Source: Natronorubrum texcoconense (GTDB lineage: Archaea > Halobacteriota > Halobacteria > Halobacteriales > Natrialbaceae). Taken from it: 64,000 bases of DNA. The stretch's first letter is position 1, and each line of letters opens with the position of its first letter. The stretch spans positions 744,001-808,000 of the forward strand of contig NZ_FNFE01000001.1 of the NCBI RefSeq assembly GCF_900100335.1, in the 5' to 3' direction. Both the position numbers and the translations under genes were made by a program. The notes below the pieces were generated by a model. It searched no databases. It was given only the letters and a program-made list of their open reading frames with translations, and had not been told where the DNA came from. This document shows positions 7,236-13,065 of this stretch, piece after piece.

Positions 7236-7676
7236 CTACGGTTGTTTTTCGCGATCCGCGCCGAGACCGGCGCTGGAGATGATCTCCGCACCCTTCGGCG
7301 AGAGATCGACGGTGACGTCGCCGGGGACGGCCTTGCTGATCTCGTCGACGTTGCCCGCGAGCACCGTCAGAATGTCGTCGGGGTTCGCGTACAGCAGCAT
7401 GTTTCCGTCCTGGCCCTCCGCGACGAGTTGCGTGTCGTTCAGGACGATCTGGTTGTTCTGGATCGTCGCCGCGACGACCGGCAGCGCCTCGGGTTTTCCC
7501 TGCTCGGTATCTTTGACCTTCCGGATGTGGACGTCCTCGAGGTCGAGGACGTCCTTGTGCTCTTGAATCACTTCGGCACAGGCGACCATATCCTGGAGGA
7601 GTGCCGACTTGTGGTGGCCGCCGTGTCCGTCGTCGCCGTCGAGACAGTGCTGGCAGACGCGAAGTTCGATTCGCAT
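7236..7676 (-). CDS. Conserved haloarchaeal hypothetical protein with N-terminal Cys/His cluster
   Basis: This 146-residue acidic protein starts MRIELRVCQHCLDGDDGHGG. Its Cys8 and Cys11 followed by HGGHH look like a metal site. The rest alternates strands and helices (VVAATIQNNQIVLNDT, GNMLLYANPDDILTVLAG) without a motif I can name. The start was chosen where haloarchaeal composition begins; the 30 residues upstream are low-complexity and the frame there reads like non-coding DNA. It lies 86 bp downstream of the metallo-hydrolase gene on the same strand and may be co-transcribed. Function unknown. Confidence 0.7.
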   Translation of the reverse strand: MRIELRVCQHCLDGDDGHGGHHKSALLQDMVACAEVIQEHKDVLDLEDVHIRKVKDTEQGKPEALPVVAATIQNNQIVLNDTQLVAEGQDGNMLLYANPDDILTVLAGNVDEISKAVPGDVTVDLSPKGAEIISSAGLGADREKQP

Positions 7677-7762
7677 TGTGCGAGCGTTGTCGCTCGAGCC
7701 CGATGAGAATTCCGTTTCGGGGGCCCGGGACCCGAGAGCCGGATGGGGTGAGCCCGAAGCAC

Positions 7763-8452
7763 TCACTCGCGGTGGCTCTCGGCGATCTCTCCGATCGCCT
7801 CGGAGCCGCGGTCGACGTAGCCGCCGTGGAAGCAGACGACGTGTTCGATCTCGAGGGCAGCTAGGTCGGCGACCGATCCGAGCGCGCGGTCCATATCCGG
7901 TGTGAACTCGGCCTTTGGACCGTCTATCGGGCTGCTTCCGTCCGCGACGAGCGCGTCACCGGCAAGCAGTAGGCCGTCTTCGGGGAAGTGTAACGAGACG
8001 TGGCCCGGCGAGTGGCCGGGGGTGTCGACGATGTCCATCGCTCCCGCGAGCGTCGGGATTCGGACGCCGCCGACGAGTTCCAGATCGACGGCCACCGGCG
8101 GATACCGATCGCCGTCGCCCTTGATCGGATCCCGTTCGCCCGTCACGTACGGCGCTTCCTTCCGGTGGGTCGCGACGACCGCGTCGACGTGCTCGAGCAG
8201 CTCCGCGAGACCCCCGGCGTGGTCGCCGTCGTGGTGGGTCAGGAGGACGAGCCAGATATCCGTGAGTTCGTAGCCGAGCGATCGAAGGTGAGTTCGGATG
8301 GCGTCGATCGTCCCTTGCGGGCCGACGTCGATCAGGACCGGCCCGCGATCGGTCTCGACGAGCGTCGGGGTGATCGTTAGCTCTCGGCCGCCGTAGTCGA
8401 CCGTCATCGGAAGCGTGTGAACGCCCGCATCGCGATCTTCGTTCGTTCCCAT
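7763..8452 (-). CDS. MBL-fold metallo-hydrolase
   Basis: This 229-residue protein carries the metallo-beta-lactamase signature THHDGDH at about residues 72-78, the second metal site DTPGHSPGH, and later AGDAL and CFHGG. These bind two metal ions in hydrolases of the glyoxalase II/lactonase type. The substrate is unknown. The start MGTNEDRDAGVHTL (8452) is preferred over the in-frame ATG at 8467. It is divergent from the terpene-synthase-like gene, with an AT-rich region between them. Confidence 0.88.
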   Translation of the reverse strand: MGTNEDRDAGVHTLPMTVDYGGRELTITPTLVETDRGPVLIDVGPQGTIDAIRTHLRSLGYELTDIWLVLLTHHDGDHAGGLAELLEHVDAVVATHRKEAPYVTGERDPIKGDGDRYPPVAVDLELVGGVRIPTLAGAMDIVDTPGHSPGHVSLHFPEDGLLLAGDALVADGSSPIDGPKAEFTPDMDRALGSVADLAALEIEHVVCFHGGYVDRGSEAIGEIAESHRE

Positions 8453-8585
8453 ACGCCAGACGTTCACCGCCAGAACGAAAGCGTTGTTCGTCGCTGACTG
8501 CAGTTCTCTTACCCGAACATATTCTGTGCGTGCGCTGATGCAATGATGAAAAATGATAAGTCCAATACGTTATATTGTTATAGTA

Positions 8586-9581
8586 ATGAAAAATATATCC
8601 GACCGTCCTCTCCTCGAGGTCGAGACAGATCCGTTCGCCGACGCTGCTTCGCAGTCGCTCCCGGAAACCGTTCGGCCGATAGCCGACGCCTACGACGAGC
8701 GCATCGCGGATCGAGACCGCTCCCTCTGGCGCTGGTTCTACCGGGCGACGGCCGAGTTCGGCCTCTCGTGTGTCGATGCAGATTGCGTCCGGCGAACTCG
8801 CAGCGCGAAGACTCTCGCCACGATGTTCATCACCGTCGTCGACGACGTCGCCGAGCGGTACGGCGACCGGGAGACGCTCGCGGAACTGTTGAAAGTCCCC
8901 TTCGAACATCAGGACGCGGATCCGACTCGAGCGGGCGTCGCGGGCGAGTACGTCCGATTTCAACGGGAGCTCTGGGCACAGCTGCGAACCCTGTACGACG
9001 ACGGGCCGCGGGCCGAAGAGTTTGCGGAACTGTTCCGGTTCGATCTCCGGCAGGCGTTCCAATCGGTCGACTACTCCGCGTTGGTGGCCCAGCATCCCGG
9101 GCTCGCCTCCGAGCGCGAACTCTGGACGTACGACGCGCACAACATGATGGTGCTCTGTTTCGCCGATATCGATCTCGCGTACTCGTCGTCGTTCGACGCG
9201 GCCGAACTCGCGGCGGTTCGGGAGGTCGTCACGCGGGCACAGCGGATGGCCCGGGTCGGCAACTGGATCGCGACGTGGGAGCGTGAGCTGGCCGAAGGCG
9301 ACTACAGTTCGGGCGTCGTCGTCCGCGCGCTCGAGTCCGGTGTTATCTCGATCGACGAACTACGGGCACTCGAGGCGCGGCCGACGGACGACGCTGTCGA
9401 ACCGATCGTGACGGCGATCCGCGAGTCCGATATCGAGGCCTATTTCGTCGATCGCTGGCGCTGCGAGTACGACGAGGCGGCGCAGTTCGTCGGCGCGGCT
9501 GAGAGCGTCGATCTCCGCGCGTATCTCGAGGGGTTCGAGACGATCTTTCGGGCGCAGTTAGCGAACCGCCCGTCGAACTAA
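8586..9581 (+). CDS. Class I terpene synthase-like protein
   Basis: This 331-residue, largely helical protein shows both Mg2+-binding motifs of class I terpenoid cyclases. DDVAE at residues 86-90 matches the Asp-rich DDxx(D/E), and NWIATWERE at 226-234 matches the NSE/DTE motif (N-x3-S/T-x3-E). Their 140-residue spacing, the total length and an Arg (R178) 48 residues before the NSE motif all agree with bacterial sesqui- and diterpene cyclases. It is not a prenyl-chain elongase (no second DDxxD) nor phytoene synthase (no DxxxD pairs). It would ionise a prenyl diphosphate and release a cyclic terpene. The start follows a very AT-rich region (8510-8590). Alternatively it may be a catalytically changed relative of unknown function. 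Confidence 0.6.
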   Translation: MKNISDRPLLEVETDPFADAASQSLPETVRPIADAYDERIADRDRSLWRWFYRATAEFGLSCVDADCVRRTRSAKTLATMFITVVDDVAERYGDRETLAELLKVPFEHQDADPTRAGVAGEYVRFQRELWAQLRTLYDDGPRAEEFAELFRFDLRQAFQSVDYSALVAQHPGLASERELWTYDAHNMMVLCFADIDLAYSSSFDAAELAAVREVVTRAQRMARVGNWIATWERELAEGDYSSGVVVRALESGVISIDELRALEARPTDDAVEPIVTAIRESDIEAYFVDRWRCEYDEAAQFVGAAESVDLRAYLEGFETIFRAQLANRPSN

Positions 9582-9738
9582 TCGCGGGGACGAACGGGAG
9601 AACGCTCCCTGGACAGTTGCGGAGTCGATCGACTTCCGTCTGCGACTCTGTGCCATTCATTTCAACGAAACAAAAAGTATATGCCGACAGAATCGAAGGT
9701 TGCTACACTGAATTGGATAGCTGAATGAGGTATCTCGA

Positions 9739-10368
9739 ATGGAATTAATTAGTAACCAGTGCGGTGATACGACGGTCGTAGATGGGATTACACGGCTCTT
9801 CGACGAGGACGGAACGATCTATCTCGTGACCGGCTACTTCACCAACAGCGCGTACCGACTCATCCGCCCCGATATCGAGCGGTTTCTCTCACGGTCCCCG
9901 GAGAACGAACTCGTCGTCGTCGTGAGTCCGACCGCGGATCAGTTCACGCCCTCGATCGCCCGTGACCTCCAGCAACTCGACGACAGGATTCAGCTGTACA
10001 AGTATCCACACGGCTGTCTCCACGCGAAACTCTACGTTCGGACCGGCGACCACCCGACCGCGATGGTCGGCTCGATCAATCTCACGCGGGTCGCGTTCGA
10101 GCAAAACATCGAATTGAGCGTGCTCGTCGAGTCGGACGACGGCGACGCGGATATCGAGCCGTTCGTCGAGTGGACGGACGAACTCCTTTCGATCTGCGAA
10201 CCGTTTCGGAAGCGGGACCTGTTCCGGCCGGTGATGCTCCTGAACACGATTTCGGTGTGGACGAACAAGGCGCGACTGCTCTCGGGACGCACCGTCGTTC
10301 ACCAGCCGTCGGTGTACGTCGTCCTCGCGCTCCTCGGACTGTTCGTGCTCATGTCCTGGACGACCTGA
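9739..10368 (+). CDS. PLD-like protein with C-terminal membrane anchor
   Basis: This 209-residue protein has a single phospholipase D-type half-site: HAK at 95-97 and GSIN at 111-114. The Asp normally four residues after Lys is displaced (D104). Upstream strands ELVVVVSPTAD and IQLYKYPHG fit the fold. A hydrophobic helix at about 188-207 (YVVLALLGLFVLMSW) should anchor it in the membrane. PLD enzymes need two half-sites, so this one would act as a dimer, as a nuclease or phosphodiesterase. It has its own AT-rich promoter (aaaagtatatg near 9675). PAP2 follows after 6 bp, so the two are likely one operon. Confidence 0.7.
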   Translation: MELISNQCGDTTVVDGITRLFDEDGTIYLVTGYFTNSAYRLIRPDIERFLSRSPENELVVVVSPTADQFTPSIARDLQQLDDRIQLYKYPHGCLHAKLYVRTGDHPTAMVGSINLTRVAFEQNIELSVLVESDDGDADIEPFVEWTDELLSICEPFRKRDLFRPVMLLNTISVWTNKARLLSGRTVVHQPSVYVVLALLGLFVLMSWTT

Positions 10369-10374
10369 CCAGCC

Positions 10375-11106
10375 ATGGCACGTGACTTCGGCGAGGTCGA
10401 CGCCCTCCAGGAGATCGTCCCGGAAGCGCTGGCGTTTCCGACTGCGATGGCGACTCAGCTCGGCGCGATCTGGTTCGCGACGCTGCTCATCTGCTGTCTC
10501 TACTGGTTTCACGACCGCAACGACGCAGTTGTGACCGCCGGCCTGCTGGTCACCGGCACGGGGATCTGGCGGACGATCAAGATCGTCGCTCCCGTACCGC
10601 GTCCCGAACAGCCCCTGGTCGCGCTCGAGGCGCTCCCCTCGCTCCTCCGGCCGCTGTACGAACTGGCCGTCGTCGACAGCGGTGCGGGCTTTCCCAGCGG
10701 CCACGCGGTGACGACGACGATCGTCTACCTGTCGCTCGCGAGGTATCTCTCCGTCGGCAGCCGACGACAGCGGTACCTCGGCGCGCTCTCGATCGTCTCA
10801 TTGGTCGGCCTGACTCGGATGACCCTCGGCGTTCACTACCTCGTCGACGTGATCGCGGGCGCGGTGATCGGCAACGCGGTCCTCCTCGTCGGCTTCTGGC
10901 TCTGCTCGAGGTATCCCGAGCGCCGAGTAGCGATCGCACTCGGCGGGGGCCTTTGCTCCGCCTCGGTGTGCTTGCTCGCGAGTCTGTTCGTCGGACCGTT
11001 CAGCTTCTGGGAACTCGGCCTCTTCGTCGCCGGCGTCGGCGGCTTCCTGTGGTGGCACGTCGCCGCAACGGACCGTCGGCCGGTCGGCGTCGGAGATCCC
11101 TCCTAA
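10375..11106 (+). CDS. PAP2-family phosphatase
   Basis: This 243-residue integral membrane protein has the three PAP2 motifs: KIVAPVPRP (K69...R76P77), PSGH (107-110) and TRMTLGVHYLVD (R148, H154, D158). The catalytic histidines are H110 and H154. Family members remove phosphate from phosphatidate, polyprenyl phosphates or diphosphates at the membrane surface. It starts 6 bp after the PLD-like gene and lies close to the terpene-synthase-like gene, so a lipid or isoprenoid substrate is plausible but not shown. It is convergent with the cystathionine gamma-synthase gene. Confidence 0.85.
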   Translation: MARDFGEVDALQEIVPEALAFPTAMATQLGAIWFATLLICCLYWFHDRNDAVVTAGLLVTGTGIWRTIKIVAPVPRPEQPLVALEALPSLLRPLYELAVVDSGAGFPSGHAVTTTIVYLSLARYLSVGSRRQRYLGALSIVSLVGLTRMTLGVHYLVDVIAGAVIGNAVLLVGFWLCSRYPERRVAIALGGGLCSASVCLLASLFVGPFSFWELGLFVAGVGGFLWWHVAATDRRPVGVGDPS

Positions 11107-11124: not shown

Positions 11125-12309
11125 TCAGTCGAGCGCCGACTCGATCGCCCCGTCGAGGTCGTCGATCAGGTCGTCGACGTGTTCGATGCCGACGCTCACC
11201 CGGATCAGGCCGTCCGTGAGACCGGCGGCGATGCGTTCTTCGCGGGGGATCGCCGCGTGGGTCATCGGCGCGGGCTGTTCGATCAGGCTCTCCACGCCGC
11301 CGAGACTCTCCGCGAGCGTGAAGATCTCGGTGTTCGAGACGACCTCGCTCGCCTCCTCGAGGCTCGCGTCGAGTTCGAAACTCAGCATGCCGCCGAAGTC
11401 GTCCATCTGCTCGGCGGCGATCTCGTGGCCGGGGTGAGAGTCGAGGCCGGGGTAGTACACCCGGTCGACGTCGGGATGGTCGTCAAGCCACGCCGCGATC
11501 GCGCGGGCGTTCTCGCAGTGGCGGTCCATGCGGACGGGCAGCGTCTTGGTGCCCCGGAGGACGAGGAAGGATTCGAACGGACCGGGCGTCGCACCGACGG
11601 AGTTCTGGTAGAAGCCCAGTCGTTCGTCCAGATCCTCGTCGTTCGTCAGGAGGGCACCGCCGACGACGTCCGAGTGGCCGCCGAGGTACTTCGTCAGGGA
11701 GTGGGAGACGATGTCGGCGCCGAGATCCAGCGGTCGCTGGAGGTACGGCGTCGCGAACGTGTTGTCGATGGCACACAGCGCGTCGTGTGCGTGGGCGATC
11801 TCGGACGCGCCCGCGATGTCGACGATCGACATGAGCGGGTTGGTCGGCGTCTCGAGCCACAGCAGTTCCGTATTCTCCTGAAACGCGCCCTCGATCTCGT
11901 CGAGATCGGTCATATCGACGAACGTGAACTCGATATCGTACTCCTCGTACACTTGCGTGAAGATACGGTGGGTGCCGCCGTAGACGTCGGTTCCCGTGAC
12001 GACGTGATCGCCGGCGGAGAGGAGGTTGAGGACGGTGTTGATCGAGGCCATGCCGCTGGCGAACGCGCGGCCGTAGTCGGCGTTCTCGAGGCTCGCGAGG
12101 TTCGCCTCAAGATCGGTTCGGGTGGGGTTCCCCGTTCGCGAGTACTCGTAGCCCCGATGCTCTCCGGGCGCGTCTTGCTCGTAGGTCGAGTTGGCGTGGA
12201 TCGGGGTCATCAGCGCGCCCGTCTCCGCGTCGGGGTCCTGTCCGGCGTGGATCGAACGGGTCTCGAGTCGGTACTGGTCGTCGTCGCCGTCGCGCTCGCG
12301 GTCGTCCAT
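11125..12309 (-). CDS. Cystathionine gamma-synthase/lyase family PLP enzyme
   Basis: This 394-residue enzyme belongs to the Cys/Met metabolism PLP family. The PLP lysine sits in SHSLTKYLGGHSDVVGG, with YEYSRTGNPTR and ETPTNPLMS upstream and the SLGGVESLIEQPAPMTHA block near the C-terminus. It makes cystathionine from an activated homoserine and cysteine, or splits it; sequence alone does not separate the two. The start MDDRERDGDDDQYRLETRS was chosen over an ATG 21 nt upstream. It lies 69 bp after the HTH regulator on the same strand, so control by that regulator is possible. Confidence 0.85.
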   Translation of the reverse strand: MDDRERDGDDDQYRLETRSIHAGQDPDAETGALMTPIHANSTYEQDAPGEHRGYEYSRTGNPTRTDLEANLASLENADYGRAFASGMASINTVLNLLSAGDHVVTGTDVYGGTHRIFTQVYEEYDIEFTFVDMTDLDEIEGAFQENTELLWLETPTNPLMSIVDIAGASEIAHAHDALCAIDNTFATPYLQRPLDLGADIVSHSLTKYLGGHSDVVGGALLTNDEDLDERLGFYQNSVGATPGPFESFLVLRGTKTLPVRMDRHCENARAIAAWLDDHPDVDRVYYPGLDSHPGHEIAAEQMDDFGGMLSFELDASLEEASEVVSNTEIFTLAESLGGVESLIEQPAPMTHAAIPREERIAAGLTDGLIRVSVGIEHVDDLIDDLDGAIESALD

Positions 12310-12378
12310 ACCGGGCCCAACGGACTGCAACGGGGTTACTCTTGCTTTCGGCGGCGATCGGAACGGTGTCGCCGGAAC

Positions 12379-13065
12379 CTACAGTTGCTGGGGTGGCGTC
12401 GACTCGGAGATCGGTTCCGAGACGACGTGATCGACGAGTTTCGCCTCGATCTTCCGGAGGTGCTCGCCGACTGTGCCGCCGGCGATGCCGACCTCGCGGC
12501 CGATCTCGTCGTAGGTCGTCTCCCGGGGCGAGGCATAGTAGCCGAGATCGATCGCGGTCCGAAACAGTCGGCGCTGTTGGGAAGTGAGCGTCGCGAGGAA
12601 GACGTTCTCGTCGGGTTCGAACGGCTGTTTCGTCTCGAGTACGACGTCGACGCCGTCTGGAACGACGGCCATCGCCCGCTGGAAGGACGGCTCCGTCGCG
12701 AGGTAGGTCACCCGCAGGTCGCCGTCGCGGACGTAGGTCATCGGCGGATCGAGGAAGACCTGAAACTCACGGGTAATCCGGAGGAGCGCGCGAACGGTTT
12801 CGTTCGGGACGAACTGCGAGCAGAGCAGAATTCGGTCGCCGAAGGCCTCGAGCCAGTAGTCGAACGAGCCGAGTTCGTCGTCGACGAACGCCTCGACTCG
12901 GTCGAACTCGCCACCCAGTTCGTACAGCATTACCCCGAGTTCGTCGGTCGCCAGGCGGATCCGCTGGATCGCGACGCGTTCGACCCCCTCGCACTCGTCG
13001 ATTCGCTTCTCGAACGGGTGAAACCACCCGTCCGCCGGGGAGAGCCGAACGTCGTAGTGGCGCAT
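12379..13065 (-). CDS. Bat-type HTH (HTH_10) transcriptional regulator
   Basis: This 228-residue protein has a ligand-sensing N-terminal part of about 150 residues without a recognisable catalytic motif. Its C-terminal helix-turn-helix (about 165-215) contains LTSQQRRLFRTAIDLGYYASPRETTYDEIG, characteristic of the bacterio-opsin-activator HTH_10 family common in haloarchaea (written here in two parts of one run only as a landmark: LTSQQRRL and YYASPRETTYDEIG). It probably regulates nearby genes such as the downstream cystathionine enzyme, or stress genes elsewhere. It is divergent from the ribosomal L21e gene. Confidence 0.85.
   Translation of the reverse strand: MRHYDVRLSPADGWFHPFEKRIDECEGVERVAIQRIRLATDELGVMLYELGGEFDRVEAFVDDELGSFDYWLEAFGDRILLCSQFVPNETVRALLRITREFQVFLDPPMTYVRDGDLRVTYLATEPSFQRAMAVVPDGVDVVLETKQPFEPDENVFLATLTSQQRRLFRTAIDLGYYASPRETTYDEIGREVGIAGGTVGEHLRKIEAKLVDHVVSEPISESTPPQQL

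Follow-up and report, generated by a model that had tools for sequence, protein, structure and literature searches.

The gene at positions 8586 to 9581 (forward strand) of the window, by which we mean the whole 64,000-nt stretch of contig NZ_FNFE01000001.1 of Natronorubrum texcoconense analysed here, very probably encodes a class I terpene synthase: judging from its sequence and its modelled structure, the product is predicted to be a single-domain enzyme with two metal sites, a diphosphate sensor on helix H, and a linear prenyl diphosphate as substrate. Enzymes of this class are behind the scents of plants and the odours of soil. Archaea produce large amounts of prenyl diphosphates for their lipids; to our knowledge, few cyclic terpenes have been credited to them. 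The assignment draws on the open reading frame and its translation, a match to the Pfam profile PF19086, the fold of an AlphaFold2 model, and the dN/dS ratio of the gene.

Gene, probable promoter and chromosomal site

The letters of the window and their translation confirm the preliminary description of the gene: the open reading frame of 331 residues carries DDVAE at residues 86-90 and NWIATWERE at residues 226-234, with 140 residues from D86 to N226. Its start at 8586 is backed by the orthologue in a congeneric genome (G003; 89% identical), where the sole start codon lies at the matching place. Between these two genes dN/dS is 0.15 (NG86) or 0.11 (YN00); the protein is under purifying selection. 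An AT-rich stretch at the start of the gene (8536..8605), probably its promoter, contains the 60-mer with the least GC in the whole window (23%; the mean is 65%), and the sequences upstream of the gene in several relatives, compared by eye, have an AT-rich look as well. The preliminary description had already remarked on this promoter, and the stretch is real, but the different history that it was thought to hint at does not hold: the gene has an unremarkable base composition (64.9% GC), which argues for a promoter and not for foreign origin, nor does an AT-rich promoter mean a foreign gene, since the locus is syntenic across the family.

The surroundings of the gene were delimited by Pfam matches and synteny. 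A metallo-beta-lactamase-fold gene (7763..8467, reverse strand; PF00753) is the conserved neighbour that marks the locus; beyond the synthase gene lie an inserted pair of PLD-like and PAP2 genes (9739..11106, forward strand; PF13091 and PF01569), a cystathionine gamma-synthase-type gene (11125..12330, reverse strand; PF01053), and an HTH_10 regulator gene (12379..13065, reverse strand; PF04967). This is a fixed chromosomal site in many Natrialbaceae, with the metallo-beta-lactamase gene on one side and either the cystathionine gamma-synthase gene or the L21e/Rpb4 genes on the other; clean empty sites, their flanks joined without the synthase, are found in G002, G005 to G008, G011, and G017. 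Shared in this way, whether present or empty, the site marks an old family gene that is neither a recent import nor part of a biosynthetic cluster. A recent horizontal gain in N. texcoconense was accordingly rejected, given that the site is common across Natrialbaceae and the empty-site relatives are clean. The genes flanking the synthase have ordinary functions, and a Pfam survey of them disclosed no isoprenoid genes in this genomic context. The PLD-like and PAP2 phosphatase pair has the synthase on one side and a cystathionine gamma-synthase or HTH_10 gene on the other (9739-11106 in the window; 9162-10540 in L077). An operon with this pair was considered as a family feature and discarded, since the window and G028 were the only ones of the compared loci to have both genes.

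Profile and fold evidence

The 331-residue protein matches PF19086 (terpene synthase family 2) with 27.9 bits against a curated cut-off of 23.7 (E 2.4e-6), and the same profile is matched by 21 of 22 aligned homologues (E up to 1). PF00348 is absent among its Pfam matches; searches of NCBIfam and of the PDB sequences returned nothing usable, no solved structure being matched by sequence. AlphaFold2, run with the 22 aligned homologues, gave an alpha-helical class I fold (pLDDT 91.8, pTM 0.90), for which the top Foldseek matches in the PDB are the diterpene synthase VenA, aristolochene synthase, and T-muurolol synthase (E 4.5e-5 to 6e-5); the prenyl diphosphate synthases rank after the terpene synthases in this list. 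VIA-align matched the full length of the model to plant, fungal, and bacterial class I enzymes with Z of 20-22 over 250-290 residues, well above the reference level quoted by the tool for unrelated helical models (best Z about 14), and this at an identity of 9-17% to the solved synthases. From the full-length fold match together with residue conservation we infer that DDVAE and NWIATWERE would lie around one cavity. The preliminary description had proposed a class I terpene synthase-like protein, and had named a profile search and a structural overlay as ways to check it; the proposal is upheld by a PF19086 score above the cut-off, by a confidently predicted class I fold whose full length matches terpene cyclases, and by the conserved metal motifs. 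A chain-elongating isoprenyl diphosphate synthase was rejected, as the second motif is of the NSE type and not an Asp-rich DDxxD, and PF00348 is unmatched.

Metal motifs and probable diphosphate sensor

Conservation was counted over 46 homologues: 40 haloarchaeal and 6 methanogen (group A). In the first metal motif (DDVAE, 8841..8855, forward strand) D87 is kept in 46/46 and D86 in 44/46; in the second, of NSE type (NWIATWERE, 9261..9287, forward strand), N226, W231, R233, and E234 are kept in 46/46 and T230 in 45/46. Together with R212 and R223, D87 and these four residues are invariant throughout the set, and variation at D86, T230, N186, and M187 is confined to at most three of the 46 homologues. 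The second position of the NSE motif is W here instead of D. Taken alone, the pair of motifs is only suggestive, because 249 of 100,000 shuffles of the protein (0.25%) yield DDxx[D/E] and N...[S/T]...[E/D] at a spacing of 125-155; in the aligned sequences, it is conservation and the profile scores that make the pair real.

The Arg about 48 residues before the NSE motif, which had been put forward as the diphosphate sensor, is present as R177 (49 residues before N226, with 48 between), but it is kept in only 15 of the 40 haloarchaeal homologues and was rejected in that role. Comparison of the sequences most likely places the sensor instead at R223 (9252..9254, forward strand; 46/46), three residues before N226 and probably on helix H. 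In the actinomycete enzymes Sat1646 and Stt4548, the diphosphate sensor (R220 and R236, respectively) is likewise on helix H instead of helix G, and Sat1646 has N182 as linker and Y183 as effector (PMC9814573). R220 precedes N223 of Sat1646 by three residues, just as R223 precedes N226 here, and N186 with M187 (9141..9146, forward strand; 43/46 and 44/46), the probable linker and effector, has the spacing of N182-Y183 to within one residue. With R223 and N186-M187 placed as in Sat1646, the protein most likely has the sensing machinery in its helix-H form. The C-terminal region, which holds the RY pair in canonical bacterial synthases, aligns unreliably with them.

Closest known enzymes

Sat1646 and Stt4548 are class I pimarane-type diterpene synthases (7e4m, 7e4n, 7e4o; PMC9814573) and, like the predicted synthase, consist of a single alpha domain. 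Sat1646 superposes on the model with an rmsd of 2.7 A over 251 residues (Z 21.5), the lowest rmsd among the matches listed; the NSE motif of the two enzymes, NDLASYERD, resembles NWIATWERE, and in both the Arg that senses the diphosphate sits on helix H, three positions ahead of the NSE Asn. They differ from the N. texcoconense protein in sequence (about 13% identity) and in having D where the archaeal motif has W; they also take copalyl diphosphate from a class II partner, which was undetected in the genome of N. texcoconense. With the canonical PF19086 synthases (VenA, T-muurolol synthase, aristolochene synthase) the protein has the Pfam family, the fold, and the metal motifs in common. In these canonical enzymes the Arg that senses the diphosphate belongs to helix G and precedes the NSE Asn by about 46 residues (46 in most of those aligned from a Streptomyces clavuligerus plasmid), a position that is variable in the archaeal family. 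The nearest bacterial sequence found is a protein of the S. clavuligerus plasmid (L177:1138-3162, reverse strand; NZ_CP027859.1, about 694971-695960), which is linked to the archaeal family by profile (E 9e-8; hhalign probability 97%) and by HNM and ATWRAELEEG stretches in common, but has no Pfam match and lacks an Arg three residues before the NSE Asn.

Distribution in haloarchaea and methanogens

Homologues occur in 20 of 61 genomes related to N. texcoconense and in 38 of 393 genomes of the phylum. Outside the order, methyl-coenzyme M reductase was found in eight of ten carriers tested, which identifies these eight as methanogens. The homologues of one methanogen group match no terpene synthase profile of Pfam (L114, L115, and L117 to L121, with the synthase near 7600-8900 in most of these loci). 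The group aligns with the haloarchaeal profile by hhalign with a probability of 99.5% (E 3e-23), and the AlphaFold2 model of a member (pLDDT 90.8) reaches Z values of up to 23.5 against class I synthases; the helix-H Arg is lost in this group. The copies on six haloarchaeal plasmids are annotated as 'hypothetical protein'. One replicon entered as a plasmid (L066; CP031304.1, 987 kb, Natrinema thermotolerans) bears genes for L21e, Rpb4, and 16S rRNA methyltransferase A, and may therefore be a second chromosome or a piece of the chromosome. Two carriers, G043 and G291, seem to hold broken or misassembled copies (L090, near 7799-9871; L113 and contigs C55 and C231 of G291), with a likely frameshift in the former and, in the latter, synthase fragments interrupted by in-frame stops.

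Sensor and regulator neighbours

Neighbouring genes were scored with targeted profiles, all-versus-all clustering of open reading frames having been swamped by spurious high-GC frames. In nine haloarchaeal loci (L067, L071, L083, L086, L087, L088, L090, L096, and L097) the synthase gene, a FilR1-type regulator gene, and a HalOD1 gene come one after another, in this order, on one strand; in five of the nine, the start of the regulator overlaps the stop of the synthase by 4 bases, an arrangement in the sequence such as might be expected in a translationally coupled operon. Of 40 synthase loci, 9 have FilR1 within 4 kb, against none of 40 control regions (Fisher p 0.002); for HalOD1 the counts are 14 and 2, respectively (Fisher p 0.001), both p values being uncorrected for species relatedness. 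HalOD1 is accompanied by an HTH_10 gene in another five loci, and in the two of these checked for domains the HTH_10 gene encodes a Bat-type protein (PAS/GAF/HTH_10). All seven loci of the Pfam-negative methanogen group have a relative of PAS histidine kinases directly upstream of the synthase gene and in the same orientation (domains checked in two), and two loci of the other methanogen group have one just downstream. The copy in the window is without FilR1 or HalOD1 partners; in the tree, the loci with FilR1 and HalOD1 surround its clade, with low support at several deep nodes; the cassette therefore has the look of an ancestral trait that disappeared from the lineage of the window. Recurrent neighbours of this kind suggest that the product of the synthase may act as a signal or be produced in answer to one. 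We put forward, as a tentative idea that we hold to be rather unlikely, that an old family of haloarchaeal and methanogen synthases makes an isoprenoid that is wired to neighbouring sensors through either its synthesis or its reception (FilR1 with HalOD1, Bat-type regulators with HalOD1, or PAS kinases), and that the lineage of N. texcoconense kept the synthase and lost FilR1 and HalOD1. If true, archaea would have a module for signalling or for sensing stress that is based on terpenes.

Proposed reaction and alternatives

We infer the roles of the residues, the reaction, the substrate, and the product as follows. D86, D87, and E90 together with N226, T230, and E234 would form two metal sites for three Mg2+ ions, to which a linear prenyl diphosphate would be bound by its diphosphate. 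Departure of the diphosphate would be set off by R223, its sensor on helix H, acting with N186 as linker and M187 as effector, and the resulting allylic cation would be cyclised or quenched inside the helical cavity. The enzyme would draw on the pathway to lipids and carotenoids for its substrate, which is likely to be GGPP (C20) or, failing that, FPP or GFPP; the genome of N. texcoconense has three clear prenyl diphosphate synthases. It has no match to the class II or squalene-hopene type cyclases (PF13243), so that a linear prenyl diphosphate is the substrate to be expected; 19 of the 20 synthase-bearing genomes of the set have no such match either, G043 alone having some. A neighbour in Halobellus annotated as a prenyltransferase/squalene oxidase repeat protein was dismissed as a class II partner, since its best Pfam match is a GH127 glycosidase and no DxDD was seen in it.

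Whether the cation is cyclised bears on the first alternative, in which the same fold and ionisation chemistry give an acyclic alcohol or alkene of the linalool, nerolidol, or geranyllinalool type, the enzyme then being a synthase and not a cyclase. No sequence feature fixes cyclisation, and the structures that the methanogen homologue matches in fold include an acyclic synthase, the linalool/nerolidol enzyme of S. clavuligerus (5nx4); that most fold matches are cyclases is weak evidence to the contrary, because the fold does not fix the product. We regard an acyclic product as possible, though rather doubtful. The same matches include the N-prenyltransferase DabA (6vkz), and no known downstream biosynthetic genes lie nearby, so that prenyl transfer to an acceptor by a terpene-cyclase fold was also weighed; DabA is a single row amid cyclases, and the neighbourhood is without a visible acceptor pathway, which makes this improbable. 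That catalysis was lost, leaving a sensor of isoprenoid diphosphates or a structural part of a regulatory module, would agree with the frequent neighbours of the family being sensors and regulators and not biosynthetic genes, but is very improbable, since few positions are as well conserved as those that bind the metal and the diphosphate. A bicyclic copalyl-type substrate supplied by a class II cyclase, as for Sat1646, with its lowest rmsd among the fold matches listed and its helix-H Arg, was rejected as extremely unlikely on the PF13243 results given above. The prediction of a class I terpene synthase acting on a linear prenyl diphosphate is the reading that we retain.

Terpenes in archaea

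We found no description of the archaeal synthase family in the open literature. 'Terpene' clusters in haloarchaea have been reported by genome mining (PMC8600319). The title of a preprint by Samusevich et al. (bioRxiv 10.1101/2024.01.29.577750; cited in PMC12797696) claims that terpenoid biosynthesis in archaea was uncovered by structure-enabled prediction. The helix-H sensor, the W in the metal motif, and the sensor-linked loci are features worth study at the level of the family, and culturable haloarchaea offer members of it for testing. Since sensors and regulators recur beside the synthase, a function outside pigments and lipids can be tested directly as well. Archaea may thus make, and perhaps sense, terpenes.
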